A stretch of 41,526 nucleotides of DNA, from positions 1-41,526 of the forward strand of contig CAJQLI010000022.1 in the NCBI GenBank assembly GCA_905479125.1, written 5' to 3'. Shown piece after piece: positions 24,531 through 41,526 of this stretch. The stretch's first letter is position 1. The number at the start of each line of letters is the position of its first letter. A program made the translations under genes and the position numbers. The notes beneath the pieces were generated by a model. The model made no database searches, was not told the origin of the DNA, and saw only the letters and a program-made list of their open reading frames with translations. This stretch comes from an uncultured Alphaproteobacteria bacterium. Lineage in GTDB: Bacteria > Pseudomonadota > Alphaproteobacteria > MPNO01 > UBA830.

Positions 24531-25157
24531 ATGGATAATTCTCAATTCTCGCTTTCACCGACCGTAATCCGGCTTCTGGTTGCGCTTGCTGTGATCCAGG
24601 CCATCCGCGCAATTCTGCCCTCGGAATTCGACGCCTACCTGTTGTTTTTCCTCGGGTTTGACCTGTTTCGCGGAGGGGAGCTGAATCTGATCTGGATTTA
24701 TGGCGCGGTGACGTCGGTCTTCGTCCACGGCGGCTGGCTGCACCTGTTGTCCAATGCGACATGGGTCGTTGTTCTGTCGCCGCAGATTTATCCGCACCTT
24801 CAGGGAAAACGGTTCATCGCGTTTTTTGTCGTGACCGGCACGGTCGGTGCCCTGACGCATGCACTTTTGAACTGGGGCGAAAGCCAGATACTGGTTGGCG
24901 CCTCGGGTGCGGTATTCGGGCTTCTGGGCGCGGGCGCATACGTCATGATTCGTGGCCGCGACGGCTATTCAAAGCCCACCGCAAAAGATTTTGCCCAATA
25001 TGTTCTGGTGATGATGATAGTGAATATCGGATATGCCGTGCTCAGCGAAGGTAATGTAAGCTGGGAGGCACATGCCGGTGGCTTCTTTGCCGGATTAGCG
25101 TTCTTCCCCTTTATGCGCCGCCGCCCACCGTCACCCGGACTGACGATCGTCCACTAG
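24531..25157 (+). CDS. Rhomboid family intramembrane serine protease
   Basis: VHGGWLHLLSNATWVVVLSPQI, LVGASGAVFGLLGA (catalytic GASG), WEAHAGGFFAGLAFF (catalytic His). ATG 24531 preferred. Confidence 0.93.
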   Translation: MDNSQFSLSPTVIRLLVALAVIQAIRAILPSEFDAYLLFFLGFDLFRGGELNLIWIYGAVTSVFVHGGWLHLLSNATWVVVLSPQIYPHLQGKRFIAFFVVTGTVGALTHALLNWGESQILVGASGAVFGLLGAGAYVMIRGRDGYSKPTAKDFAQYVLVMMIVNIGYAVLSEGNVSWEAHAGGFFAGLAFFPFMRRRPPSPGLTIVH

Positions 25158-26581
25158 ACCGCCGCCGCGAGTTCCGGCCGGTTATATGAGCGAACGATAA
25201 ATTCCTGCATGTATGCCACTTCGCCATATTCCGGCGGTGAATCGGGGTCGACGGGAAAGAGCGCCAGACGTAGCTCGTCGTTAAAGGTCGGCGCATCGAC
25301 GGACCCGGCTTCGTTGAGAATTTGGGCGCCGAACATTGAAAACAGCCGATCCTGATGATTTTTTGTGCCGACGGCAGCGATGATCGCCTTTGCGCCGGAT
25401 TCCGCCGCCAGCGCCCAGAGGCCGCCGAACAGTCTTTGCACAATCCGTCCCTGCCGGTAGTCGGCGTGAAGCACTAACCGGCTTGCTTCTGCGCAATCCT
25501 CACGTCGATAACCGGCGCTTGCCAGGCAGAGATTTATGTTTTCCTGTCCGAACGTGGGGTCGACCAGGGACTGGCTTCTATTGTATCCGGGAAGGGATAG
25601 CCGGGCCGCCCCGATCGGCAGGTCATTCTCGAACAGTGCCAGATGAAAGTTTTCCAGATCCGCCGGGTCCGGATCTCCATAACGAGCACCGCCGGGCCCA
25701 AATAACGGTCGGGCGCCGCCATCGTATAGAATCTGTGACCGCAACGAGCGAATCCAGAGCAGCCATTCGGGCGGTGCATTCTTGGCGACTGGTCCCGGTG
25801 GTTCGAACAGGCGGTGCTCTATCATCCGTCCAGGGCTTCTAAAATCCATCGCCAGTGCGGCGCGGATGCAGTCATCGACAAATTGGCCATATGTTTCGAG
25901 GGCCCTGGCACCGGTGTTCACAAGGGCATCAAGGCAGTCGGGACGGTCGACAAGTAGCTTCTTGATCTCACGCCGGTTGAACAGGGTGTGGGCGGCATCA
26001 AGGGCGACATGTTCCCGGAGGAACGTCAGTCCATCGCGCGCGGTATCGTTTAAAGCACTATCAGCGGCTGTGACCAGTTTCGCACCGTAAGTTAAAGAAA
26101 GCGATTCGATCTCATATTCGAGCGCGATCTGCGCAAAGGCGGTATCGGCGGCGATAATGTTTTCATGAAGGTCGCGATACTGCCGTACACCTGCCGGCGT
26201 ACTGCTCTGCAATATTGCGATCGGGTCAATCACGGCAGAAGAATAACGTTCATTCCACTGACCCGTCAGCGCCTCCAGGTCGGCGATCATCAGTTTATGA
26301 TGTCCTGCCTCATGCCGGGCGTGCGCAATCAGGCTATCACCAAGCTGGCCGAAACCGGTGTCGCGGCATTGTTCTCCGGCCCGATGGATCCAGTCTTCGA
26401 CCGGGCGGGTCATCTCGATCCCGTATGCAACGTAGTGAATCAGGAAAAGATGAAGCAGCGAGGGGTCTTGCCCCGCGGCGCCGAGCAGAGCTAGCGAGGG
26501 CCTGCGAGAGAATGCGTCCCGATGGGGGACAAGACGCCGTTCGTATTCGCTGAAAGGGTCGCTGTCATGTTCATTTGTCAT
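25154..26581 (-). CDS. Two-domain protein: heme-oxygenase-like/TenA-like putative iron-containing oxidase domain + C-terminal GNAT/FeeM-like acyltransferase domain
   Basis: 475 aa. N-terminal helical domain with candidate ligand motifs HARHEAGHHKLM, ALEYEIESLS and REHVALDAAHTLFN. C-terminal ALFENDLPIGAARLSLPGYN...EASRLVLHADYRQGRIVQRLFGGLWALAAESGAKAIIAAVGTKNHQDRLFSMFGAQ. Confidence 0.75.
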   Translation of the reverse strand: MTNEHDSDPFSEYERRLVPHRDAFSRRPSLALLGAAGQDPSLLHLFLIHYVAYGIEMTRPVEDWIHRAGEQCRDTGFGQLGDSLIAHARHEAGHHKLMIADLEALTGQWNERYSSAVIDPIAILQSSTPAGVRQYRDLHENIIAADTAFAQIALEYEIESLSLTYGAKLVTAADSALNDTARDGLTFLREHVALDAAHTLFNRREIKKLLVDRPDCLDALVNTGARALETYGQFVDDCIRAALAMDFRSPGRMIEHRLFEPPGPVAKNAPPEWLLWIRSLRSQILYDGGARPLFGPGGARYGDPDPADLENFHLALFENDLPIGAARLSLPGYNRSQSLVDPTFGQENINLCLASAGYRREDCAEASRLVLHADYRQGRIVQRLFGGLWALAAESGAKAIIAAVGTKNHQDRLFSMFGAQILNEAGSVDAPTFNDELRLALFPVDPDSPPEYGEVAYMQEFIVRSYNRPELAAAV

Positions 26582-26629
26582 ATGCAGTAAACAGGTAAGC
26601 TCATTTTTTCATCCCAACAACGTAAAAGA

Positions 26630-26661
26630 AAAAGGGCGGCCCTTCGCTGGACCGCCCTTTC
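26630..26661 (-). terminator. Rho-independent terminator downstream of the SDR gene
   Basis: Minus strand GAAAGGGCGGTCC-AGCGAA-GGGCCGCCCTTTTTCTTTT: GC-rich stem followed by a T-rich tract. Confidence 0.85.
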
Positions 26662-26683
26662 CCGATTAATCATGCGTGTTGCG

Positions 26684-27471: not shown

Positions 27472-27519
27472 CCGGTCCCGTGTTATTCCGGTCCCATGAT
27501 ATTCCGGCCTGATGTTATT
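27472..27519. repeat. Three tandem imperfect 16-bp repeats
   Basis: CCGGTCCCGTGTTATT / CCGGTCCCATGATATT / CCGGCCTGATGTTATT, directly adjacent. Confidence 0.8.
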
Positions 27520-28222
27520 CCAAGCCAAGGAACTTGTTCGAAAAGCCGGGATCATTCAAGAGCGTGTCTTTCGCACCGTCGAGCACGGACCGCCCATTCT
27601 CAATCACATAGGCATGTTCGACAAAGTCGAGCGCCCTGTGAATATTCTGTTCGACCAGCAGCATGGTGACGCCCTCATCGGATATCCGGCGTAGCGCTTC
27701 CATCACTTCGTCTACCAGGATCGGCGCAACGCCCAGGAACGGCTCGTCCAGGAGCAGCAGGTCGGGCGATGACATCAGGGCCCGGCAGATCGCCAGCATT
27801 TGTTGCTGCCCGCCGGACAACGTGCCGGCCATATCGTTGTGCTTTTGTTTCAGGATCGGGAATAGGGCGAAGGCGTGGTCGATATTATCTGCCACACCGG
27901 CGCGTGCAGATTTCGTATAGGCACCCATCTCCAGGTTTTCGCGGACCGTCATTTCACCGAACAGGCGCCTGCCTTCGGGGACCAGGGCTATCCCGGATTC
28001 GACGTTCAGCGGCGGCGAATTTCCCACGATAGAATGCCCGTCATAGCGGATATCGCCCTCCGACGGTGGATAGATACCTAGGATGGCGCCGAGCGTTGTT
28101 GATTTTCCGGCTCCGTTTGCGCCGAGCAGACCGACGCGTGCGCCCGTATCGACATTCAGCGAGAGGTCCCATATCGCCCGTAGTTTCCCATGATCGACGG
28201 CAAGGTTCTCAATCGTCAGCAT
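27515..28222 (-). CDS. Branched-chain amino acid-type ABC transporter ATP-binding protein (LivF-like)
   Basis: GANGAGKSTTLGAILG, TLSGGQQQMLAICRALMSSPDLLLLDEPFLGVAPILVDEV; LivF-like C-terminus. Confidence 0.95.
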   Translation of the reverse strand: MLTIENLAVDHGKLRAIWDLSLNVDTGARVGLLGANGAGKSTTLGAILGIYPPSEGDIRYDGHSIVGNSPPLNVESGIALVPEGRRLFGEMTVRENLEMGAYTKSARAGVADNIDHAFALFPILKQKHNDMAGTLSGGQQQMLAICRALMSSPDLLLLDEPFLGVAPILVDEVMEALRRISDEGVTMLLVEQNIHRALDFVEHAYVIENGRSVLDGAKDTLLNDPGFSNKFLGLE

Positions 28223-29970
28223 TACACGGCCTCCGGAGCAGCGGAGCCGAGATAGGTACGTAGCACGCGCTCGTCCCTGACAACGTCATCCAGCGGCCCA
28301 TCGGCGATGATCGAGCCCTGTTCCATCACAATCACACGGTCGACCACCTGGGCCAGTGCCGAAAAGATGTGTTCGACCCAGATGATTGTGATCCCGTAAT
28401 TGTCGCGCAGTTCGCGGATGTGATTGACGAAGTTTCGTACTTCCATCGGGGTCAGGCCTGATGCCACTTCGTCGACCAGTAACAGCCTGGGTCGACAGGC
28501 GAGGGCGCGGGCCAGTTCCAACGCCTTTTTCTGTTGCAGGTTCAGCGAATCCGCGCGGGCTGACAGGTGGTCCGTCAGCCCGACATATTCGGCGAACTGT
28601 GTTGCGAGACCCAGTGCATCCGGGAGTGACGCGGATACTGCGCCGCGATACATAAGCGGCATCGCTATATTTTCAGCGACGGTCAGGTCCGAGAATGGCT
28701 GCGGTATCTGGAACGTCCGTCCGATCCCCAGTTTGGATGCGTCGTCGCGGCGGGCGCCGGCCAGATTCTGGCCGAGGAAAATAATGTCTCCGGATTTCTG
28801 CTCGAATACCTTGGAGATGCAGTTGAAAAGGGTCGTCTTCCCGGACCCGTTCGTGCCCACAAGGCCGACAATCTCGCCTGCATTGATTGTCAGGCTGATG
28901 TTGTCGACGGCGACATTGCCGCCGAACGCCATCGTGAGATTGCGGCATTCGAGAACCGGTTGCCCTTTCATGTCTGACTGTTTCGGCAGAGGGAGCCCGT
29001 CTGTCATCGTGACACCTGCCGTGGCTTTCACGAACCGGTCATGTTCTCGTCCCAGGAAGCCGATCCACCTGTTATTGCGGATAATTCCGCTGCGCAGCAG
29101 CCCGCCCGGCATGTACCGGCCGATCAGAAGTAACAGCAGACCGAAAATTGCGGTTTGCAAAATCGGCAGGCTGACGATCAGCAACTGGTTGAACAGTGAC
29201 AGGATGATCACGCCGACCACGGCGCCCCACAAGAGCCCGGACCCTCCGAGAAGCGCCATGGCAATCGGGATCAGTGCGACATCAAGCCCGAACACGGTGG
29301 TCGGGTCGATATAAGAGAGCTGCCAGCCCTGAAGTGCGCCCGCGAGAGACGCAAAACCCGCAGACATGATCAGCACCCCGGACTTGGCCGGGAATATTCT
29401 TATGCCGCAGATCTCGGCTGCTTCTTCATCATTGCGGATTGCTTTGAGCGCGTAACCGAACCGGGTCCGTATCAGCCAGACGGTTGCGATGGCGGTCAGT
29501 CCCACGAGTCCAATTGCGAGGTAATAGGCCTCGAACAAAACGTATTTCGGCGGCAGAACAACGCCGTCGGCGCCACCGGTAAAATCGAAGTTGAAGGCAA
29601 GAAGTTCTGTGAGTGGCAATATCGCGAGCGTCGCAAAGGCAAAGTAATCGCCGCGCAGGCGGAACAGCGGGAAGCTGACGACCAGTGCCACGATCGAGGT
29701 GACCACCACGGCGATCACGAAGCAAAGCGCGATCGGAATACCGTTCAGCAGCGACAGGCAGAACGCATACGCGCCGATGCCGTAAAAGGCGAAATGCGCG
29801 AGATTGATATAGCCTGCCTCGCCGCCGACCCAGTCCCAGCTCTGGGCGAGGGTGTAGGAGATCAGCATGGTGAACAGAAGCGTCGTCGTGTAGGCGCTGC
29901 CCGATGTGGGGATCAGTGCCAGCGCGGCAAGAACGAAGGCGCCGCCGAGCCAGTAACGATAATTGCTCAT
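28222..29970 (-). CDS. Fused LivM-like permease / LivG-like ATP-binding protein
   Basis: ORF 28222..30051; ATG 29970 (MSNYRYWLGGAFVL) preferred. N-terminal LivM TM domain (AQSWDWVGGEAGYINLAHFAFYGIGAYAF; EEAAEICGIRIFPAKSGVLIMSAGFASLAGAL); C-terminal LivG NBD (GTNGSGKTTLFNCI; LNLQQKKALELARALACRPRLLLVDEVASGLTPMEV). Confidence 0.94.
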   Translation of the reverse strand: MSNYRYWLGGAFVLAALALIPTSGSAYTTTLLFTMLISYTLAQSWDWVGGEAGYINLAHFAFYGIGAYAFCLSLLNGIPIALCFVIAVVVTSIVALVVSFPLFRLRGDYFAFATLAILPLTELLAFNFDFTGGADGVVLPPKYVLFEAYYLAIGLVGLTAIATVWLIRTRFGYALKAIRNDEEAAEICGIRIFPAKSGVLIMSAGFASLAGALQGWQLSYIDPTTVFGLDVALIPIAMALLGGSGLLWGAVVGVIILSLFNQLLIVSLPILQTAIFGLLLLLIGRYMPGGLLRSGIIRNNRWIGFLGREHDRFVKATAGVTMTDGLPLPKQSDMKGQPVLECRNLTMAFGGNVAVDNISLTINAGEIVGLVGTNGSGKTTLFNCISKVFEQKSGDIIFLGQNLAGARRDDASKLGIGRTFQIPQPFSDLTVAENIAMPLMYRGAVSASLPDALGLATQFAEYVGLTDHLSARADSLNLQQKKALELARALACRPRLLLVDEVASGLTPMEVRNFVNHIRELRDNYGITIIWVEHIFSALAQVVDRVIVMEQGSIIADGPLDDVVRDERVLRTYLGSAAPEAV

Positions 29971-30845
29971 TTCGACTTCCGCCACCCGAAGCCCTGCGGG
30001 AAGATCACCAGGATCACCAGCAGTAATACGATTGAAATCGCCGGGGCCCATTGGGTCGCCCAGAAGAATGATGTGAAGCCCTCGGCAAGGCCGAGGAAGA
30101 TACCCGCGATCAGTGCGCCGACCAGGTTACCGATTCCCCCCAGTATGATGATGGTGAATGCCTTAACCGTGAGCGAAAAACCCATATAGGGATCGACTGG
30201 AAACAGCATTGTATAGAGTACCGCGGCGATCGCGACGATGCCGGATCCGAACGCGAAGGTCAGTGCGTGTACGCGGTCTGCCTGGACGCCGCAGATCGTG
30301 GCGCCGGTATGATCCTGGGTCACCGCCCGCATGGCGCGTCCGAACCAGCTCTTTTTTATGTAAAAATGCAGGACGATCGTAAAAACGATTATTCCGCCGA
30401 GAATCCAGGCTTGGGTTGTCGATACGATGACGTCGCCGAATTCCATTGCTTCGAAGCGGAGCGGGATATTTCGGGGTGCAGGGCCGGCAATCCAGGCTGC
30501 AACGTCGGACAGGATCAGAAGTGCCCCCACCGTTACCAGCACTGACCCGACCGTGTATTCGAAATGACTTCGTTTGGTCAGCGGCTGAAGCAGTTTGTCG
30601 TAAAACACGTAGCCGAATAAACCAAGAACCGGCACCAGCAGCGCCATAATCAGCAACGGATTCCAGGCCGTTGCCGTGAAAATGGCGCTTGCCGCGACAC
30701 CACCCACGGCCAGCAATGTGCCGTGGGCGAAGTTGAGGATACGTGCGACGCCATAGATCAGTGACAGCCCGAAGGCGACCATAGCGTAGAGCCCGCCGAG
30801 CAGTATTCCGCCCAGCGCGATCTGGATGATAATGGAGGCGTCCAT
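29967..30845 (-). CDS. Branched-chain amino acid-type ABC transporter permease (LivH-like)
   Basis: IIQIALGGILLGGLYAMVAFGLSLIYGVARILNFAHGTLLAVGG; MGFSLTVKAFTIIILGGIGNLVGALIAGIFLGLAE. Confidence 0.95.
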   Translation of the reverse strand: MDASIIIQIALGGILLGGLYAMVAFGLSLIYGVARILNFAHGTLLAVGGVAASAIFTATAWNPLLIMALLVPVLGLFGYVFYDKLLQPLTKRSHFEYTVGSVLVTVGALLILSDVAAWIAGPAPRNIPLRFEAMEFGDVIVSTTQAWILGGIIVFTIVLHFYIKKSWFGRAMRAVTQDHTGATICGVQADRVHALTFAFGSGIVAIAAVLYTMLFPVDPYMGFSLTVKAFTIIILGGIGNLVGALIAGIFLGLAEGFTSFFWATQWAPAISIVLLLVILVIFPQGFGWRKSK

Positions 30846-30889
30846 GGTGGTTATGCCATGGATGCCGGGTGACCAACGTCAGTCATGAT

Positions 30890-32104
30890 CTATTGCCAGC
30901 TGGGCGACGGATAGACGAATTTTCCGGTGGCGATCTCCGGAGGCCAGACGATCACTGGTTTACCGTTCTGCACCTGCAGCGTGAAGGCGCCGTTCTTGTG
31001 GGCATAACCGTTTTCGTTGAACTCTATCTGGCCAGTCGGTGAATCAAACGTGCCTTTGAAGAGCGCGGCCCGGACTTTTTCCCGATCGACGGTCCCGGCG
31101 CGTTCGACGGCCTGAACCATTATCAGATAGGCGGATATCCGGGACATCGTCCACGGATATTCGAACATGTCGACGTTGGCGCGTTTCACCAGCTCCTCGG
31201 TAAAATCACTGTATGGCCCCTTTACGCCGGGGTACCAGGGAATTTCACCGGTAACGCCTTCCAGGTCATTGCCTACTTGCTTGTGGAGCTTTCCCGATAG
31301 CAGCGCGTGATGCACGTCCTTTGCTTTGGTTTTAAGCCGCCGCATTTGCTGGATCAGCGGCACGGACGGGCTGTCGAAGGACGAGATATAGATGATATCC
31401 GGTTTACGGATACGCAGCTTGAGCACCAGTGACGTGAAATCCTTCAGTTCGACCGAAAACAATTCATTGCCCAGAACCTTGTATCCGAGCGAGGCTGCTT
31501 TCTTGCTCCAGAATCCCGTAAGCGCTTTGGTGACCGGGTTGTCCTGGGTGATGAAGTAGATCGTCTTTGGCCGCGGTGTCTGTTTGGACATCATGTCGAA
31601 ATATCGGGTCGACCAGTTCGGCACGGTCGGCATCGGTGTGCCCCACATGTATTTCAGTCCGCGCTTGAAGATTGGCGGTGCGGCGACATTGGCCATTACC
31701 ATCGGAATTTTATGCTTTTCGGCTACCGGCGGTACCGGAAACCCCATCGCCGACCAGTCCGGCCCGACGAAGAAATCGACCTTGTCGACCGTCGCCATGC
31801 GCTCAAACAGGCTGACCGCGGTCGAGGGCACACTCTGGTCATCATAGATGATGATCTTCAGGGGCAGTTTTTTGCCGCAGCCTTTCAGATTTACCCCGCC
31901 GTTCTCGTTGATCATCTTGGCGAACTCGATGGTCATGTTGCGCCATTTATCGGCAAGCGTGGAATACCGTCCGGTCGACGAAATCGTGGTGCCGAAAGTT
32001 ACCGGTTCGGTGCAGCTTCCCACCGTCGCGTGGGCCGGCGTGATAAGGGATGTTGCGGCAAGCGCTGCCGTTCCCAGGGCAAATAAGCCAATCGTGTATT
32101 TCAT
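30890..32104 (-). CDS. Branched-chain amino acid-type ABC transporter substrate-binding protein (Peripla_BP_6)
   Basis: ATG 32104 with SD GGGAGG and signal peptide MKYTIGLFALGTAALAATSLITPAHA; FGTTISSTGRYSTLADKWRNMTIEFAKMINENGG... VDFFVGPDWSAMGFPVPPVAEKHKIPMVMANVA. Confidence 0.93.
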   Translation of the reverse strand: MKYTIGLFALGTAALAATSLITPAHATVGSCTEPVTFGTTISSTGRYSTLADKWRNMTIEFAKMINENGGVNLKGCGKKLPLKIIIYDDQSVPSTAVSLFERMATVDKVDFFVGPDWSAMGFPVPPVAEKHKIPMVMANVAAPPIFKRGLKYMWGTPMPTVPNWSTRYFDMMSKQTPRPKTIYFITQDNPVTKALTGFWSKKAASLGYKVLGNELFSVELKDFTSLVLKLRIRKPDIIYISSFDSPSVPLIQQMRRLKTKAKDVHHALLSGKLHKQVGNDLEGVTGEIPWYPGVKGPYSDFTEELVKRANVDMFEYPWTMSRISAYLIMVQAVERAGTVDREKVRAALFKGTFDSPTGQIEFNENGYAHKNGAFTLQVQNGKPVIVWPPEIATGKFVYPSPSWQ

Positions 32105-32120
32105 CTTGGTTTCCTCCCAG

Positions 32121-32156
32121 GCTGCGCGATAGCGGTTTTTTGCTTTGCGGCGCAGC
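32121..32156 (-). promoter_or_regulatory. Candidate expression-platform hairpin next to the SD of the SBP gene
   Basis: Inverted repeat GCTGCGC (32121-32127) / GCGCAGC (32150-32156); the SD (TCCTCCC on plus, about 32113-32119) is immediately adjacent. Confidence 0.4.
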
Positions 32157-32270
32157 GTTGAACACACAGAATAGGGTTTCGCGAACGGCGATCCCGTCGG
32201 AAACAAACAACTCCAATCGGTTCTGGCGTAATTTACGTATGGACTAACGCATGGATAAGTCATCAAGTTC

Positions 32271-32366
32271 ACCGTCCCTTCGCCGGCATTATCCGGTGCA
32301 GGTTCCAGGGGTCGTTCGATGATCGAACCTCTCAGCCGTTACTGGCGGCTCCCCCCGATGGAAGCC
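32271..32366 (-). promoter_or_regulatory. TPP (THI-box) riboswitch
   Basis: Minus strand TTCCATCGGGGGGAGCCGCCAGTAACGGCTGAGAGGTTCGATCATCGAACGACCCCTGGAACCTGCACCGGATAATGCCGGCGAAGGGA. Contains the conserved CTGAGA, GACCCCTGGAACCTG, and CCGGATAATGCCGGCGAAGGGA elements of the TPP aptamer. Confidence 0.95.
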
Positions 32367-32405: not shown

Positions 32406-34127
32406 ATGAATTCTCAGATGAACGATACAGTTTATGATTACGTGATCGTCGGCGGCGGGTCTGCCGGGTGCGTGCTTGCAGGCCGCCTGAGCGCCCGGTC
32501 ATCAAACCGCGTTTTGCTGGTTGAGGCCGGTACTGATTACGCGCCCGATAATCTGCCGGAACAGCTGCAGGACGGGTTCGCGGGTGTGGCCTATAACGAC
32601 CTGCGCTTTATCTGGAACAAGCTTCGCGTCACGGTCCCGCCGCGCCCCGGTAACCTGCCCGATACCCGCCCTGACAAACTGTATCAGCAGGCCCGTGTGA
32701 TGGGCGGTGGATCGTCCATCAACGGTATGATGGCGAACCGGGGAAGCCCGCTGGATTACAATGAATGGGTTGATCGCGGCGCCGCCGGCTGGGGCTGGGA
32801 TGATGTCCTGCCGTTCTTCAAGAAGCTCGAATCGGACCGGGATTTCGACGGGCCTTATCATGGCAAGGATGGCCCGATCGGAGTGCGGCGCCTGTTTCCT
32901 GATATCTGGCCCGGCTACACGAAGGCGATCATGCAGGCAGCCGATGACGAAGGCTTTGCCTATCTTGAAGATATGAACGCCGATTTCGCCGATGGCTACT
33001 TTCCCATCACGATCTCGAACATCGACGACAAGCGTGTATCGGCGAATGTCGCCTATCTCACGATGGAGGTCCGCGCCCGCCCCAATCTCGATATCCTCGA
33101 TCAGGCGGAGGTACAGCAGCTTAATTTCGATGGCCGGAAGATTGCCGGTCTGCGGGTCAAACGTCCCGACGGTGAGCGGACGATCCGGGCGAATGAAGTG
33201 ATCGTTTCGGGTGGCGCGACGCATTCTCCGGCGATCCTGATGCGGTCCGGCGTCGGTCCTGCGGCGCAGCTGTCCCATCTTGGTATAGACGTTGTCGCCG
33301 ACCGTCAGGGGGTCGGTCAGAACCTGATGGAACATCCCGGTGTGTCGATGGCGTCCTACATGAAACCGGATGCGCGCCTGCCCAAAGGCATGCGCCGCCA
33401 GATGATCGCGGCGATGCGGTTTTCATCCGGTGTCGAAGGCTGCGGCGAGAACGACATGTTTATCGTGCCGACGAATAAATCGGTATGGCATGCGCTCGGT
33501 GACCGCATCGGCGCCGTGATGGTGTGGATCAACAAGTCGTATTCGACCGGCGAAGTGACGCTGAATTCCGCCGACCCGGGGATCGAGCCCAATGTCGATT
33601 TCAACATGTGCTCCGACGAGCGCGACCTGGTGCGGCTGGTCAGGGCGACGCGCCTGCTGGCAAAGCTGCATGAAAACCCTGCCGTGACCGGTGCGGTACA
33701 TGACGTCTTCCCCGCCGCCTATTCGGAGCGGGTGCGCAAAGTCGGGGAATTCAACAATTCGAACCGGATCAAGACATGGATTGCCGCACAGCTCATGGAT
33801 CTCGGCGGGCCGGTGCGCCGCAGCTTCATCAATAACGTGATTCTCGAAGGGCCGACACTGTCCGAGCTATTGCACGACGACGACACCATCGCCGACTGGA
33901 TCCGCACCACCGTCACCGGTCACTGGCATGCATCCTGCACATGCCGTATGGGGGCATCAGATGATCCCGGTGCGGTGACCGACCCGTCCGCGCGGGTTTA
34001 CGGCGTTGAAGGCCTGCGGGTCTGCGACACGTCGATCATGCCCTGCGTGCCGCGTGCCAACACGAACATCCCGACCATAATGATGGCGGAAAAGGTGGCC
34101 GACACGATTTTGGCGGAAGCGGGTTAG
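32406..34127 (+). CDS. GMC family FAD-dependent oxidoreductase (choline dehydrogenase-like)
   Basis: YDYVIVGGGSAGCVLAGRLSARSSNRVLLVEAG; ARVMGGGSSINGMMANRG; GGATHSPAILMRSGVGP; GHWHASCTCRMG; DTSIMPCVPRANTNIPTIMMAEKVAD. Confidence 0.96.
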   Translation: MNSQMNDTVYDYVIVGGGSAGCVLAGRLSARSSNRVLLVEAGTDYAPDNLPEQLQDGFAGVAYNDLRFIWNKLRVTVPPRPGNLPDTRPDKLYQQARVMGGGSSINGMMANRGSPLDYNEWVDRGAAGWGWDDVLPFFKKLESDRDFDGPYHGKDGPIGVRRLFPDIWPGYTKAIMQAADDEGFAYLEDMNADFADGYFPITISNIDDKRVSANVAYLTMEVRARPNLDILDQAEVQQLNFDGRKIAGLRVKRPDGERTIRANEVIVSGGATHSPAILMRSGVGPAAQLSHLGIDVVADRQGVGQNLMEHPGVSMASYMKPDARLPKGMRRQMIAAMRFSSGVEGCGENDMFIVPTNKSVWHALGDRIGAVMVWINKSYSTGEVTLNSADPGIEPNVDFNMCSDERDLVRLVRATRLLAKLHENPAVTGAVHDVFPAAYSERVRKVGEFNNSNRIKTWIAAQLMDLGGPVRRSFINNVILEGPTLSELLHDDDTIADWIRTTVTGHWHASCTCRMGASDDPGAVTDPSARVYGVEGLRVCDTSIMPCVPRANTNIPTIMMAEKVADTILAEAG

Positions 34128-34522
34128 CCCTTCCGCGTCGACGCGGCGATCATCTCCACTTCCACCAGCAGTTTGGGAGTTGCCAGTCCGGCGACCACCA
34201 GCAGGGTCGACGTGGGCCGGTTCTCGCCCAGGTATTCCTCGCGGATCGCGTTATAGGCCGGAATATGCGCCGGATCGGTCAGGAAATGCGTGATCTTCAC
34301 CACGTCACTGATGCGCAGCCGATTGTGTTCGAGGATGGCGAGGCAGTTATTCCAGGCATTCCGTGCCTGGGAGTCGAAATCGTCCGGGATGTTGCCGTCA
34401 AAATCCACCCCGATCTGACCCGCTGTATAGGTGATCTTCGCATTCTCGGGAATTTCCACGCCATGGGCATAGGGCCCCGCCGGTGGCTGCATCTTTTCAG
34501 GATAAAAGGCACGATTTTCCAT
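34124..34522 (-). CDS. RidA family protein (YjgF/YER057c/UK114)
   Basis: Preferred ATG 34522 (MENRAFYPEKMQPPAGPYAHGVEIPENAKITYTAGQIGVD); NRPTSTLLVVAGLATPKLLVEVEMIAA. Confidence 0.92.
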   Translation of the reverse strand: MENRAFYPEKMQPPAGPYAHGVEIPENAKITYTAGQIGVDFDGNIPDDFDSQARNAWNNCLAILEHNRLRISDVVKITHFLTDPAHIPAYNAIREEYLGENRPTSTLLVVAGLATPKLLVEVEMIAASTRKG

Positions 34523-34700
34523 GGTGGTTTCCTCTATGTGTCGATCAGGTTCGATGACTATTCTATAGGAAGCCGGGGCGACCGCGGCAAGCGCCACCTG
34601 AAGATGAATTTGCAATTTGGTGCCGAGACCCCCTAAAATGCTGTCTGACAGCGAGAAATTCAGGGCAGACCGAGCGTCTGTCCAATACAGGAGAAACCGC

Positions 34701-35768
34701 ATGTTTCTGAAAGATACCTGGTATGTCTGCGCACAGCCCGAGGAAGTCACCCGGACACCGATGGCGCGCACAATCTGTAATGAAAACCTGGTCTTCTGGC
34801 GCAAGGAAGACGGCACACCGATCGTGTTCGAGGATCGCTGCTGCCATCGGCGGATGCCGTTATCGAAGGCGAATCTCGTCGGCGACCAGATGGAATGCTA
34901 CTATCACGGCCTGCGTTTCGACGAGGACGGCAAATGCGTGCATGTCCCCGGACAGACCACGATCCCGCCGGGAGCGCAGGTTCAGAAATATCCGATTGTT
35001 GAAAAATACAACTGGATGTGGATCTGGATGGGCGATCCCGCGCTTGCGGATGAAGACCTGATTGTACCCTACCCCTGGAAGACTGCGGATGACTGGGGCG
35101 ACAAGGGCACCTATTTTTACGTCAAAGCCGATTACAAGCTCGTCGTCGACAATTTGCTTGATCTGTCGCATCTGGGCTTCGTGCATCGTTCCACCATCGG
35201 TAATGCTGCCGTTGCCGAGGCCGCCCGTGTCCGGACGCTGAAGGACGACGATTCTGTCACCGTTGCGCGCTGGACTGTCGGTCAGCCTCCGGCACCGACC
35301 TATCAGAAGATGGGCGGCTGGACCGAGGATGACATCGTCGATCGCTGGCAGATCATCGAATTCCGGATGCCGGGCGCGGTGCGCCTGTTCACGGGTGCTG
35401 CGCCGGGCGCTGCCGAAGGCAAGGAATTCGGGTTTACCGAGATCGACCGTGATGTGCCCGAAGGCGGGTTCGGTTTCCACAATCTCAACTTCGTGACCCC
35501 GGAAACCGAGAACACGACGCATTATTTCTGGTCCAATGCCTATCAGGTTCAGGGTCAGCCGGTGTCGGAAGAAATGACCGAGCTTTCCTACAGGCAGATT
35601 TTCACAGCCTTTCACCAGGATTGGGAAGTCTTCAACAAGCAGCAGGAAAACTGGGACGACAAGCCCACGATCGACACCGTCCAGGATGCGGGCTCAATCG
35701 CTGCGCGCGCCATGATCGATCGCAAGATTGCGGAAGAACAGGGCCAGATGGCGGTCGCTGCCGAGTAA
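34701..35768 (+). CDS. Rieske 2Fe-2S aromatic ring-hydroxylating oxygenase, alpha subunit (VanA-like)
   Basis: Preferred ATG 34701. Rieske ligands CCHRRMPLSKANLVGDQMECYYHGLRFDEDGKC; mononuclear iron motif DNLLDLSHLGFVH. Confidence 0.94.
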   Translation: MFLKDTWYVCAQPEEVTRTPMARTICNENLVFWRKEDGTPIVFEDRCCHRRMPLSKANLVGDQMECYYHGLRFDEDGKCVHVPGQTTIPPGAQVQKYPIVEKYNWMWIWMGDPALADEDLIVPYPWKTADDWGDKGTYFYVKADYKLVVDNLLDLSHLGFVHRSTIGNAAVAEAARVRTLKDDDSVTVARWTVGQPPAPTYQKMGGWTEDDIVDRWQIIEFRMPGAVRLFTGAAPGAAEGKEFGFTEIDRDVPEGGFGFHNLNFVTPETENTTHYFWSNAYQVQGQPVSEEMTELSYRQIFTAFHQDWEVFNKQQENWDDKPTIDTVQDAGSIAARAMIDRKIAEEQGQMAVAAE

Positions 35769-35786
35769 TTACGGCGTTATCGAATT

Positions 35787-35820
35787 AAAACGGCGGTCCT
35801 GCGCGGGGCCGCCGTTTTTT
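35787..35820. terminator. Bidirectional Rho-independent terminator between convergent genes
   Basis: AAAACGGCGG-TCCTGCGCGGGG-CCGCCGTTTTTT. Confidence 0.88.
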
Positions 35821-36754
35821 ATGGGGCGTTCACGATCCGGCGGTAAATCGGCACGGCGACCAGCGGCAGGATATAAATCGGGAACTGGCCGACGACGAAA
35901 TAGACCAGCAGGTCATAGGGGGCGTTCTCGCCCAGTGCTGCCAGCACCAGTGCCGTGTTGGTGTTCCCTGTAATCAGACCTACCGTCAGTGCAGCGCGGC
36001 GGCCGATCCGCCAGAACAGAAGCGTGGCGGCGATTTGCAGGCCGATATTTATTGCGAATGTCGTTGCCGTCACGATCGCCGTATAGGCGGGTTTTGCTGC
36101 GGTGAATTCCGGCAGGCCGGACATCAGCGATACCGCGACCCCGACCATCCCGAATACCATGATCCCGTCCATGCGCGATGCCTGGGCTTTCAGGAAGTCA
36201 GGCCCCAGCAGCTTGCGTGCGACAAATGCGATCAGAAAACTTGCGCCGACAATCCGGCCGAGCCGCCACATAAGTTCGAGCACCGTAACGTCCAGCTCTA
36301 TCCCCAGGAGCCACAGCGCCAGAGGGGGCAGCGTAAATGGCACCAGAGCATAGGATGCGACGGTCACAATCAGGGCGAGGGCCGCGTCGAGCCCGAAAAG
36401 GATACACAGCGCAGAGCCCGACATAATCGGCGTCGCGAGCGCATGGAATACCATTCCTGCGCCGACCGGCCCGTCTATCCCGGCGGCGATGGTAAAGCCC
36501 CACAGGATCAGCGGCGCTATCCCCATTGAAAACACAAAGATGGCGGCAATCAGAACCGGGCGACGGAGATAGCTCTTTAAGGCGGCCGGTTCGATACGCA
36601 TCATCGACAGCGACAGGTTCATGACAATGAAAATTTCCAGCCAGGGCGCGAAAAAATTGGCGAGCGGCTGCCAGGCGATCCCCAGAAAGACGCCGGCGGC
36701 CAGCACCCATGTCGTGCGTCGGGCGACCATTTCGAGTGCGTTCAACAGGATCAT
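35819..36754 (-). CDS. Bile acid:Na+ symporter (BASS)-like membrane transporter
   Basis: ORF 35819..36832, preferred ATG 36754. Polytopic; FIVMNLSLSMMRIEPAALKSYLRRPVLIAA, ATPIMSGSALCILFGLDAALALIVTVASYALVPFTLPPLALWLLG. Confidence 0.65.
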   Translation of the reverse strand: MILLNALEMVARRTTWVLAAGVFLGIAWQPLANFFAPWLEIFIVMNLSLSMMRIEPAALKSYLRRPVLIAAIFVFSMGIAPLILWGFTIAAGIDGPVGAGMVFHALATPIMSGSALCILFGLDAALALIVTVASYALVPFTLPPLALWLLGIELDVTVLELMWRLGRIVGASFLIAFVARKLLGPDFLKAQASRMDGIMVFGMVGVAVSLMSGLPEFTAAKPAYTAIVTATTFAINIGLQIAATLLFWRIGRRAALTVGLITGNTNTALVLAALGENAPYDLLVYFVVGQFPIYILPLVAVPIYRRIVNAP

Positions 36755-37683
36755 GCGCGCATCAATCGGCGGTATACCGGCAGGGCGACCACGGGCAGAA
36801 AATACATCGGAATCTGTCCCAGAACGAAGCACACCAGAAGTTCCGGCGGCGCGCGGTCAGCCAGGGTCACCATCAAAAGTCCCAAGTTTGTGTTGCCGGT
36901 AACCAGACCGACGGTAAGTGCTTCGCGACGGCCCATCCAGAGAAAAAGCGCTGCCCCCACAATCTGCAGCCCTATATTCGCCGCGAAAGAGGCGGCGAGG
37001 ACCAGCACGACATAGTCCGGTCGGGCGGCGACAAACGCGGGCAGGCCGTGGATAATCCCGAAGCCGAAAACCATGACGAAGAGAACGCTGATTCCATCGA
37101 GCGCCCTCGCGTTCTTTAACATAATTTCCGGCTTGATAACCCAACGTCGGATTGCAAACGCGATGCCGGCAGGGATAGCAATCGTCGCAAACAGACGGCT
37201 GAAAAGATCGAAAAACCCGACGCCAAGATCGAGGCCCAGCAACCAGAGCGACAAGGCGGGCAGGGTAATAGGTACGATAGCGTAGGTCGTGACCATCACG
37301 GCCACTGCCAGTGCGGAATCGAGTTCAAGTATCGTTGCGAAGGCGATTGCCGAACTGACCATCGGGGCGGCGGCGAGCAGCACCATCCCCTGGCGAAGTT
37401 CGTCGGGAATATCGATCGGCGTCAGCAACACCCACATCAGGACCGGGGCGGCGATCAGGTTGACCAGTACGATCAGCGCCATCGCTCCAGGGCGGCGGAT
37501 GTAGCCGCGCAGCCGTGCCACATCCAGCCGGAGCATGGCCACCGTCAGGATGACAATGATGGCGGGCAGGATAAATTCCCTGCAGGCAGCAGCCAGTGGC
37601 GGCAGCAGATAGCCGATGACGAAGGCGCTTGCCATCAGCCAGGTGCCCATGGCGGCGACCCGTTCCAGTGCGCTGGGGATCAT
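36751..37683 (-). CDS. Bile acid:Na+ symporter (BASS)-like membrane transporter, tandem paralogue
   Basis: ATGA-type overlap with downstream paralogue; FILPAIIVILTVAMLRLDVARLRGYIRRPGAMALI, AAPMVSSAIAFATILELDSALAVAVMVTTYAIVPITLPALSLWLLG. Confidence 0.65.
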   Translation of the reverse strand: MIPSALERVAAMGTWLMASAFVIGYLLPPLAAACREFILPAIIVILTVAMLRLDVARLRGYIRRPGAMALIVLVNLIAAPVLMWVLLTPIDIPDELRQGMVLLAAAPMVSSAIAFATILELDSALAVAVMVTTYAIVPITLPALSLWLLGLDLGVGFFDLFSRLFATIAIPAGIAFAIRRWVIKPEIMLKNARALDGISVLFVMVFGFGIIHGLPAFVAARPDYVVLVLAASFAANIGLQIVGAALFLWMGRREALTVGLVTGNTNLGLLMVTLADRAPPELLVCFVLGQIPMYFLPVVALPVYRRLMRA

Positions 37684-37705
37684 GGCGCTCCCGTTTCAGG
37701 GTCGA

Positions 37706-38182
37706 TCAATATGAGGTGCCGTCGAAATGGCGGAACGATCGTGTGCCGTCAGCGGGTTTTTCCATGATCATATCGTCATCGGGATAGTGAACTTTTTCGC
37801 TTTCCGACCGGTTCCCGACCTCTAGAAACCGGACGATTGCATCCGATTTGTTTTCCAGCCGGTGCGCATCGCCGGAATTCGCCGGGAAGCATGCGCACAT
37901 GCCCGGCTGCAATACTTCCTCTCCACTATCGGTCACCAGCGTCGGCGTACCGTCGATGATATAGATGAATTCGTCTTCTGCGGAATGCCAGTGCCGTAAT
38001 GCCGATACGGCTCCCGGTTCCATTTCGGTGAGATTTACACCGAACTTGGTCAGACCGTGCGGGTCGCCCAGGGCGCGCCGGGATTTTCCATTCAACGCTG
38101 TATCGTTCGGGGGCGGATACGGGTTGCGCACTTCTGCTTCAATCGTAAGCGGATCGAACGCGGGGGATGGTTTGTCAGACAT
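37706..38182 (-). CDS. Cupin domain-containing protein
   Basis: GAVSALRHWHSAEDEFIYIIDGTPTLVTDSGEEVLQPGMCACFPANSGDAHRLENKSD shows both cupin motifs. Confidence 0.92.
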   Translation of the reverse strand: MSDKPSPAFDPLTIEAEVRNPYPPPNDTALNGKSRRALGDPHGLTKFGVNLTEMEPGAVSALRHWHSAEDEFIYIIDGTPTLVTDSGEEVLQPGMCACFPANSGDAHRLENKSDAIVRFLEVGNRSESEKVHYPDDDMIMEKPADGTRSFRHFDGTSY

Positions 38183-38192
38183 TGGCAGTTCC

Positions 38193-39596
38193 TCAGTTTG
38201 GCAGGAAGTCGTTCAGGTCAACGGTATCGTAGTTGCGCGGCATGGCTTTGGTGAACCTGGCGCGTGCAACGGGGTCGGTAACGGCGGGCTTGGTCGCATC
38301 TATAAGGGTCTTTGTGCCGATGCGGTGCATCGGGCTCTGACCCGGCACGATGTTGGAAACGTTGTCGAGCGACCAGGTGCGCGCGCCGGGGATTTTGATG
38401 ACGTCGCGCTGGGCATCGACCCGTGTGGTCAATGACCAGAAAACCTGGCGCATGTCCGATGCATCGATGTCGTCATCGACGGCGATCGCCAGCTTGGGGT
38501 GCATTTGCGGTCCGGACAGGGCGGCCATCAGGGCGGTCTTCGCCTGCCCTTCGACCCGGGGGCGCAGCTTGATGACCACGGCCATCAGACCGGCAATCCC
38601 GAGACAGCGGAGATCCAGGAGATCGAGCCCGCCTTCGACATTTTTGAGGTGATCCCATAACAGCATATCAATCGCCGTTGCCACCAGCGCCTGTGTATCG
38701 GTCATCGGTGCACCGCATTGCATCGCGTAGAAGATGGGGTCCTTGCGTCGGGTGATCGCCTTTACGTCGAGATATTGCGTGAACCCTTCCATGGCGTAAC
38801 CGCCGGACCCTTCGCCGAACGGGCCTTCAGGTGTCAGGGCATCGGGCGGGATTTCGCCTTCGATGATCATCTCGGCCTCTGCCGGCACCTCAATGTCGAT
38901 TGTCTCGCACTTCACCAGCCGGACGGGTTCGCCCATCAGGGCCCCTGCAATCGTCAACTCGTCGGTACCGTAGGGTGCTGTATAGGAGGAAGAGAAATAG
39001 AGAGCCGGATGGGCGCCAACGACCATCGCGACGGGCATGGCTTCACCCCGTTGCTGATATTTTTCGTATATGCGGAGGGCTTGCCGGGGGCAGATCAAAT
39101 AGCCGGTTCGATTTTTGCCCATAACCTGCTGGCGATGGATCGACATGTTCCGGATGCCGGTATCGGGATCCTTGATGATCGCCATCCCCGACGCGATGAA
39201 CGGGCCGGGGTCCATTTCGGATGTCCACGCTGCGGGGACCTTCGTCAGGTCCACGTCGTCCCCGGTTTCGATTATCTGTTTCACCGGCGCGCCGTCACGC
39301 TCAACCATCACCGGTTCGACCGGATTGCGGACGCGGTTATTGAACGCGTTTATGACGTCGTCCTCGTCGACGCCGAGCCCGATCGCCCATTTTTTTCTGT
39401 CGGTGATGATCTGGTTGCAGGCCCGCCAGCCGGGGAAGCCTGCCAGATTATCGAATAAAGACGCTTTGCCCAGCTGGTCATATGCTTTCCAGCCGATGGC
39501 GGTCAGGTTCTGTAACGGATCGACTTCTTTGGCGAAACGGACGAGTTCGCCCTGTTGTTCAAGGTTTCCAAGATATCCGCGGATGGATTGATCCAT
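38193..39596 (-). CDS. UbiD family decarboxylase
   Basis: GMAIIKDPDTGIRNMSIHRQQVMGKNRTG; MVVGAHPALYFSSSYTAPYGTDELTIAGALMGEPVRLVKCETIDIEVPAEAEMIIEGEI; PEGPFGEGSGGY. Confidence 0.96.
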   Translation of the reverse strand: MDQSIRGYLGNLEQQGELVRFAKEVDPLQNLTAIGWKAYDQLGKASLFDNLAGFPGWRACNQIITDRKKWAIGLGVDEDDVINAFNNRVRNPVEPVMVERDGAPVKQIIETGDDVDLTKVPAAWTSEMDPGPFIASGMAIIKDPDTGIRNMSIHRQQVMGKNRTGYLICPRQALRIYEKYQQRGEAMPVAMVVGAHPALYFSSSYTAPYGTDELTIAGALMGEPVRLVKCETIDIEVPAEAEMIIEGEIPPDALTPEGPFGEGSGGYAMEGFTQYLDVKAITRRKDPIFYAMQCGAPMTDTQALVATAIDMLLWDHLKNVEGGLDLLDLRCLGIAGLMAVVIKLRPRVEGQAKTALMAALSGPQMHPKLAIAVDDDIDASDMRQVFWSLTTRVDAQRDVIKIPGARTWSLDNVSNIVPGQSPMHRIGTKTLIDATKPAVTDPVARARFTKAMPRNYDTVDLNDFLPN

Positions 39597-39707
39597 TCTT
39601 TGTTTTCTTTCGGCTGCGATTGCGTCTGCGGATTATCATCCGGGGGCGGTGAGTTTCTGCCAAATCATGTCATAATCGTCTCCGGCACGCCAACGCAGGG
39701 GAAAATT

Positions 39708-40286
39708 ATGACAGGCACTTCCATCCGGAAAATTGTCACCATCGTTCAGGAAACACGGACCGAAATCGGCCAGAAGATTGATCCGCCGTCACGGCAATGC
39801 GCGGCGATTGCGGTGATCGCCAACCCGTATGCCGGGCGTTATTCGCAGGAACTGCCCGAACTGGAAGCCGCCGGCGCCGAGCTTGGCGATCTGCTTGGCC
39901 AGAAGGCGATGGCGGCGCTCGGTATCGGCGCGGACGAGGTGGAAAGTTTCGGCAAGGCGGCCATCGTCGGTGAAAACGGCGAAAAGGAACACGCTGCCGC
40001 CTGTATGCACCCGACCATGGGGAAACCGCTTCGCGCCGCGGTGGGCCCGGCACCGTCCATTATCCCGTCGGCGAAGAAAATCGGCGGGCCGGGCACGACG
40101 ATCGATTGCCCGCTGCATCACAAGGAAGACGTCTGGACGTTTTCGCATTTCGACGCGATGGAAGTATCCCTGTCGGACGCACCTCGTGCGGACGAAATCA
40201 TGGTGATTATCGCGATTACGGATTCAGGGCGTCCGCTGCACCGGGTCGGCGAGGGTAAGACCTCTGCCGATGTCGGGGGGGACTGA
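39708..40286 (+). CDS. Amino acid synthesis (AA_synth / DUF1185) family protein
   Basis: Preferred ATG 39708 (MTGTSIRKIVTIVQETRTEIGQKIDPPSRQCAAIAVIANPYAGRYSQELPELEAAGAELGDLL); PTMGKPLRAAVGPAPSIIPSAKKIGGPGTTIDCPLHHK. Confidence 0.85.
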   Translation: MTGTSIRKIVTIVQETRTEIGQKIDPPSRQCAAIAVIANPYAGRYSQELPELEAAGAELGDLLGQKAMAALGIGADEVESFGKAAIVGENGEKEHAAACMHPTMGKPLRAAVGPAPSIIPSAKKIGGPGTTIDCPLHHKEDVWTFSHFDAMEVSLSDAPRADEIMVIIAITDSGRPLHRVGEGKTSADVGGD

Positions 40287-40293
40287 ACCTGTT

Positions 40294-40332
40294 TCCGGGC
40301 TTGAATACCGGTGCGCGAAATTCAAGCCCGGA
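40294..40332. other. Intergenic hairpin with 13-bp perfect stem between convergent genes
   Basis: TCCGGGCTTGAAT (40294-40306) / ATTCAAGCCCGGA (40320-40332), 13-nt loop; no flanking T-tract on either strand. Confidence 0.75.
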
Positions 40333-40348
40333 CGTTCGCGAAGACCCG

Positions 40349-41526
40349 TTAGCCTACCGCCCTGCCTGATGTCGGTAGGTCTATGCGGCCGGTTTTGTCA
40401 TAACCGGCGAGCGCAGTTTCAACGAGGGCCTGTGACTTTGCGAAATCATATTCGCGATACAGGTGGGATTTAACGATAAACGGTGCGCCTGCGTAGAACT
40501 TTTCATAGCTGGTGTGGCGCGATGCAAATTCCGAACCGACACAATCCCACGCCAGTTTCATGAACTTGACGCGGTCATCCGCGGGCATGTCAGGTGATTG
40601 TATGTATTTCTGGATAACCGCGTTCATTGTGGGGTTTTCGAAATCGCGAACGCTCGACGGCAACTGGATGAATCCACCGCCGGCCAGTTCCCGAATGATG
40701 TCCAGGAATTCCGGGTACATGCGCGACTGCTGGGCCATGGCTGCATAGGTGATCTGCTTGTTCGGCACGTAAACGCCGTTCTGGTTCGGCTCGGCTTTCG
40801 AGATTTGGGCATCCAGCAACCCTTCATATGTGGCCGCGTGAAGTGCCAGATCGCCAATCAGGCTTTGCACGGGCGGTAGATTTGCAACCCCGTTCATCTC
40901 GGCGATTTTCTGTGCGAGACCAACCATAAACCGGAGTTTCGTGACGAACCGCGTTTGGGCCTGATTGTTCCCGAGCACGTGCGCCGGACCCTCAAACCAC
41001 TGCGCCCGCGCAACATCGATGTCTTTGTAGACGAAGATGTTTTCCCAGGGAACGAAGACATCTTCGTATACGAGCAGGCTGTCTGTTTCATCGAAACGAC
41101 TGGCCATCGGATAATCGAACATTGAATTCGCACCGTCCGCGTAGGAGCGTCGCGAGTATATCTGAACGCCTTCCGCCCAGACCGGGATGGCTACCGAAAT
41201 CGCGTAGGCCTCGTCGCCGGGGCGCATCGGGGTGATGGTCGATAGCTGAACGAAGTCGGAATAGACTGTGCCGGTGCCCAGCATCTGTGCGCCGCGAATG
41301 ACGATGCCGTCTTCGCGTTCTTCGACCACCCCTGCATAGCTGTCCGGAGGATTCTGCTGATGTGCGGGTTTTGACCGGTCAATCTGTGGCGGGACGATGG
41401 TGTAGGTAATATAGGCGTCGTTATCCCGCAGAAATTCATAGAAATTCATGGCGTTGTCGGCGAGATCCTGCCGGCCGTTTTTGGCGAGTACCTGCGGTTC
41501 TGCGGCGAATCCGACGAAGAAAGTCG
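40349..41526 (-). CDS. 4-hydroxyphenylacetate 3-hydroxylase (HpaB) family protein, 5' end truncated by window end
   Basis: Frame stays open past M41449 to window end (...FVGFAAEPQVLAKNGRQDLADNAMNFYEFLRDNDAYITYTIVPPQIDRSKPAHQQ); GIVIRGAQMLGTGTVYSDFVQLSTI; ENIFVYKDIDVARAQW. Confidence 0.88.
   Translation of the reverse strand, partial: TFFVGFAAEPQVLAKNGRQDLADNAMNFYEFLRDNDAYITYTIVPPQIDRSKPAHQQNPPDSYAGVVEEREDGIVIRGAQMLGTGTVYSDFVQLSTITPMRPGDEAYAISVAIPVWAEGVQIYSRRSYADGANSMFDYPMASRFDETDSLLVYEDVFVPWENIFVYKDIDVARAQWFEGPAHVLGNNQAQTRFVTKLRFMVGLAQKIAEMNGVANLPPVQSLIGDLALHAATYEGLLDAQISKAEPNQNGVYVPNKQITYAAMAQQSRMYPEFLDIIRELAGGGFIQLPSSVRDFENPTMNAVIQKYIQSPDMPADDRVKFMKLAWDCVGSEFASRHTSYEKFYAGAPFIVKSHLYREYDFAKSQALVETALAGYDKTGRIDLPTSGRAVG

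Follow-up and report, generated by a model that had tools for sequence, protein, structure and literature searches.

Heme-oxygenase-like dimetal oxidases (HDOs) such as UndA, CADD, SznF, BesC, AetD, and MboA share a helical-bundle fold, a pattern of three histidines and three carboxylates (3H/3C), and an H-x3-D-x2-H element in the last core helix. The motif E-H-X-H-D/E-H is reported for ~85% of HDO groups (PMC11363339; see also PMC13108848). In the available portion of a 2026 review (PMC13108848), validated functions are given for about a dozen of >10,000 HDOs, and SznF, which carries a C-terminal cupin domain, is the only catalytic HDO fusion noted. A different kind of oxidase is found in the TyzA/TyzC and OxzA/OxzB systems, where an N-acyl amino acid synthase with the FeeM/AHL-synthase fold is accompanied by a flavin oxidase, which introduces a double bond into the acylated amino acid (PMC10404671); this oxidase belongs to the nitroreductase superfamily and occurs with a ThiF cyclase. 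FeeM and the AHL synthases BjaI, LasI, and RpaI have a GNAT-type acyltransferase fold and an ExSR-like motif.

The gene described here lies in a 41,526-nucleotide stretch of DNA from an uncultured alphaproteobacterium (contig CAJQLI010000022.1), referred to as the window, and encodes an HDO-like domain and a GNAT-like domain in one polypeptide (Table 1). The first-pass annotation, which reported this combination, gave the correct coordinates, and its observation was upheld; the gene is on the minus strand, and stop codons close the plus strand at the same coordinates. The segments that it quoted were found at residues 87–95 (HARHEAGHH), 155–160 (EYEIES), and 191–198 (HVALDAAH) and from residue 365 (EASRLVLHADYRQG). 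The protein shares with the HDOs the fold, the 3H/3C pattern, and the element in the last core helix but, unlike them, falls below the Pfam cut-off for the family and is joined to an acyltransferase. Its pairing of an N-acyltransferase with a putative O2-dependent oxidase is similar to that of TyzA/TyzC and OxzA/OxzB (PMC10404671), whereas its oxidase is predicted to be a non-haem dimetal enzyme and is covalently attached; no ThiF gene was seen among the identified neighbours. It has the fold and ExSR-like motif of FeeM and the AHL synthases but misses the FeeM and Autoind_synth profiles, and no LuxR was found in five genomes of its family. Neither a fusion nor an operon of an HDO with an AHL-synthase-like acyltransferase was found in the open-licence literature, where the search for a characterised enzyme of this architecture, of which the annotator knew none, also gave no case.

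Table 1. Features of the fusion gene, its surroundings, and the Frankia nepalensis gene pair
Feature	Sequence	Position	Strand	Remarks
HDO-GNAT fusion gene	Window	25154..26581	-	475 aa, ATG start
HDO-like domain, helical bundle	Window	25847..26557	-	Residues 9–245; AlphaFold model and PDB fold matches
GNAT-fold acyltransferase domain	Window	25184..25768	-	Residues ~272–466; Acetyltransf_5 in orthologues and PDB matches
E91-x2-H94, predicted ligands 1 and 2	Window	26300..26311	-	Invariant in 8 homologues
E155/E157/E159, predicted ligand 3 (one of the three glutamates)	Window	26105..26119	-	All three invariant in 8 homologues
H191-x3-D195-x2-H198, last three predicted ligands	Window	25988..26011	-	Invariant in 8 homologues
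E365-A-S-R368, ExSR-like motif	Window	25478..25489	-	E365, S367, and R368 invariant in 3 fused proteins
Terminator-like hairpin	Window	26628..26663	-	15 pairs, T-rich tail; intergenic gap between SDR and fusion genes
Acyltransferase gene	F. nepalensis L034	9872-10585		Overlaps HDO gene by 4 bp
HDO gene	F. nepalensis L034	10582-11439		Overlaps KAS III gene
KAS III gene	F. nepalensis L034	from 11436
ACP gene	F. nepalensis L034	12490-12798

By sequence alone, no solved structure was convincingly related to the fusion protein, and an AlphaFold model was built on an 11-row alignment; both folds, HDO-like and GNAT, were recovered in this single model. The N-terminal domain forms a seven-helix bundle (pLDDT mostly >90), for which the top PDB match obtained by Foldseek was 3dde, a structure with the heme-oxygenase-like fold; CADD (TMt 0.79–0.81) and UndA (TMt 0.66–0.69) were also matched. 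The heme-oxygenase-like bundle proposed at the outset is thus borne out by the model and these matches. The profile search suggested along with it gave a weak match: Haem_oxygenas_2 (PF14518) matched residues 63–230 with 20.0 bits against a cut-off of 28.9, and the relatives scored 16.8–25.7 bits, every member tested being below the cut-off. The genome from which the window comes contains another HDO-family match, near a LysR-like gene, and this one exceeds the Pfam cut-off (L001; G000:C295:12137-12637).

The candidate metal ligands noted in the first pass could be mapped to a predicted site with the pattern E-H-X-H-D-H (E91, H94, E155, H191, D195, and H198; 3H/3C), which is unchanged across eight alphaproteobacterial, Frankia, and myxococcal homologues. 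Of the 113 ORFs with 200 aa or more in the window and related regions, four show the spacing E-x2-H ... H-x3-D/E-x2-H, three of them being members of the fusion protein's family. Sequence and model together support an HDO-type fold with a complete set of candidate metal ligands in the N-terminal half.

The C-terminal domain was modelled as a mixed alpha/beta structure with moderate confidence (means of 10-residue blocks, 35–86). Its PDB matches comprised the AHL synthases BjaI, LasI, RpaI, and MesI and GNAT acetyltransferases; plain acetyltransferases scored almost equally to the AHL synthases, and phosphinothricin/ArsN-type acetyltransferases were near the top. Among matches in the viral library, the top rank went to a phage protein that bears the name N-acyl-L-homoserine lactone synthetase. 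The Acetyltransf_5 profile (PF13444) matched residues 303–384 of the window protein with 19.2 bits against a cut-off of 22.4, which was passed by both orthologues (32.5 and 33.4 bits) and by the Frankia protein (28.4 bits) described below. A match to FeeM (PF21926) at residues 313–424 scored 14.1 bits (17.4 in L005) against a cut-off of 27, and the NCBIfam model for exosortase-associated acyltransferases (exosort_acyl) was weakly matched. Seven residues (R278, R281, D303, D305, D308, R327, and R368) are invariant when the Frankia protein is included; some of these presumably correspond to conserved LuxI-family positions. The fold matches and the motif shared by the three fused proteins agree with the earlier description of a GNAT-like core recalling autoinducer synthases, and a GNAT fold near the AHL synthases, with an ExSR-like motif, is supported by the alignments and the model.

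Two further genomes of the family, G005 and G006, carry full-length fused orthologues with 50–52% identity over nearly the full length; their counterparts in public records are DKQG01000050 (UBA7314) and CAJWSW010000009. Searches of the remaining order, of 385 genomes sampled from the class and 399 from the phylum, and of plasmid and viral sequences yielded no additional fused homologue, and a contig scan by short peptide patterns, which distant homologues may escape, retrieved only the two known orthologues. For the whole gene, pN was 0.29–0.34 against a saturated pS of 0.76–0.84, and the same pattern of pN far below pS was repeated in each half. A recent foreign origin was rejected, the GC (0.58) and GC3 (0.62) contents being near those of the neighbouring genes. 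On sequence evidence, the HDO-GNAT fusion is real, conserved, and under purifying selection.

In Frankia nepalensis, the two domains are encoded by separate genes that overlap by 4 bp and are arranged in the opposite order, so that their association either arose twice or was rearranged. Genes for KAS III and ACP follow, which points to acyl-ACP supply, and after them a pyruvate/indolepyruvate (2-oxoacid) ferredoxin oxidoreductase-like gene. Four myxococcal genomes, three of them from Nannocystis, likewise have an HDO gene with a closely spaced neighbour. The Nannocystis neighbour, located directly downstream, encodes a 222-aa protein without a Pfam match (L031:10787-11455 and L032:10825-11493), and the other, 35 bp upstream of the HDO gene, encodes a 576-aa PilZ-domain protein with a further C-terminal part (L052:9698-11428). 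Their candidacy as acyltransferases gained no support, and neither is counted as evidence: profile comparisons were no better than negative controls, and the AlphaFold pLDDT of the 222-aa protein was 37. The evidence linking the two domains therefore comes from a single fused lineage and a single Frankia operon. The myxococcal genome G1389 contains three diverged HDO paralogues (L053:8615-9376, L054:7958-8815, and L055:7980-8885), in which most metal ligands are apparently lost.

The fusion gene is located between SDR and rhomboid genes in a conserved stretch that carries UbiD, cupin, BASS, Rieske VanA-like, RidA, GMC, AEC, and MarR genes, and it adjoins the SDR gene at the same position in three genomes. 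It is absent from two sister genera, one of which retains the whole stretch (G001; SDR-rhomboid gap, 174 bp) and the other the part from SDR to MarR (G004; gap, 67 bp). Terminator-like sites are as numerous in the region as in the mean of the shuffled sequences, but the hairpin after the SDR gene stands out by its 15 pairs and intergenic location. Among 12 genes compared between G005 and G006, which belong to one genus, the fusion gene is the least conserved (57% vs 68–95%). Because it is absent beside retained neighbours, preceded by this hairpin, and more divergent, it seems to be an accessory gene in its own right and no integral part of the cluster. Conserved UbiD, cupin, Rieske VanA-like, RidA, GMC, and HpaB genes and two BASS-like transporter genes at 32406-41449 of the window suggest a degradative pathway for an aromatic or amine compound. 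The window also carries genes for a branched-chain amino acid ABC transporter at 27515-32272, between SDR and GMC; its permease and ATPase appear to be joined in one ORF of 609 aa, and the transporter genes are absent at that site in the related genomes compared.

The reading that we favour, and hold to be somewhat probable from sequence, model, and analogy, is a bifunctional oxidase/N-acyl-amine synthase in which the HDO half would oxidise a molecule acylated by the GNAT half. At the C-terminal domain, an amine, most likely an amino acid or amino acid derivative, would receive an acyl chain from acyl-CoA or acyl-ACP, and this chain would probably exceed acetyl in length. The putative N-terminal dimetal oxidase would use O2 on the same molecule for desaturation, hydroxylation, N-oxygenation, or decarboxylation, oxidation most likely following acylation, and the product would be a small oxidised N-acyl-amine metabolite. 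We infer metal binding and catalysis by the fusion protein, as well as its substrate class and the order of steps. Retention of the fusion in three genomes with purifying selection in both halves counts for a bifunctional enzyme, as does divergence faster than that of the neighbours, a common trait of genes for specialised metabolism. The genes around it in the window seem catabolic and provide no biosynthetic context.

Alternatively, the HDO half might act first, turning an amino acid or amine that is still free into a reactive species, e.g. an N-hydroxylated or unsaturated one, which the GNAT half would acetylate or acylate to stabilise or detoxify it. Such an order would suit the phosphinothricin/ArsN-type fold matches and the substrates of characterised HDOs, which are mainly amino acids and fatty acids (PMC13108848 and PMC13185094). 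The Acetyltransf_5, FeeM, and exosort_acyl matches and the AHL-synthase folds, however, lean to longer acyl donors, and the KAS III–ACP pair of the Frankia operon also argues against it; we regard oxidation before acylation as unlikely.

The AHL-synthase fold matches and the conserved ExSR-like motif would also be expected of a synthase making an autoinducer-type N-acyl compound that is further oxidised and sensed by a receptor. Against this, Autoind_synth (PF00765) did not report the fusion protein at E<=1 and had no match in the host genome, the adjoining genes include no obvious receptor gene, and Autoind_bind (LuxR; PF03472) had no match in five genomes of the family including the host (83–94% complete), a LuxR-type receptor being the usual, though not strictly defining, partner of an AHL synthase. 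A classical AHL synthase is therefore disfavoured, the idea of a quorum-signal synthase in the usual sense was not supported, and a signalling role of the broader kind appears very improbable. Much the same low probability is assigned to a role on an intermediate of the surrounding aromatic/amine catabolic pathway (UbiD, Rieske VanA-like, HpaB, GMC, SDR, and RidA): the constant position beside the SDR gene would accord with such a role, but its faster divergence does not, and membership in the flanking cluster was rejected by its absence at this site in the sister genera and by the hairpin.

If the fusion protein is a bifunctional oxidase/N-acyl-amine synthase, its product is probably an oxidised acyl-amine metabolite not known before, as no described enzyme with an HDO and acyltransferase pairing was found. 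It is possible, and we put it forward only tentatively, that the protein is a single-chain synthase of a new class of oxidised N-acyl amino acids, e.g. a dehydro-, N-hydroxy-, or decarboxylated enamide lipid, that would bring a new oxidase type into the N-acyl amino acid synthase and oxidase pairing and provide the first example of an HDO joined covalently to its acyltransferase. Because the fusion names the partner reaction directly, the substrate space would shrink to acyl amines, which may be tested in one assay, and the split Frankia operon, with its likely acyl supply genes, offers a second system.
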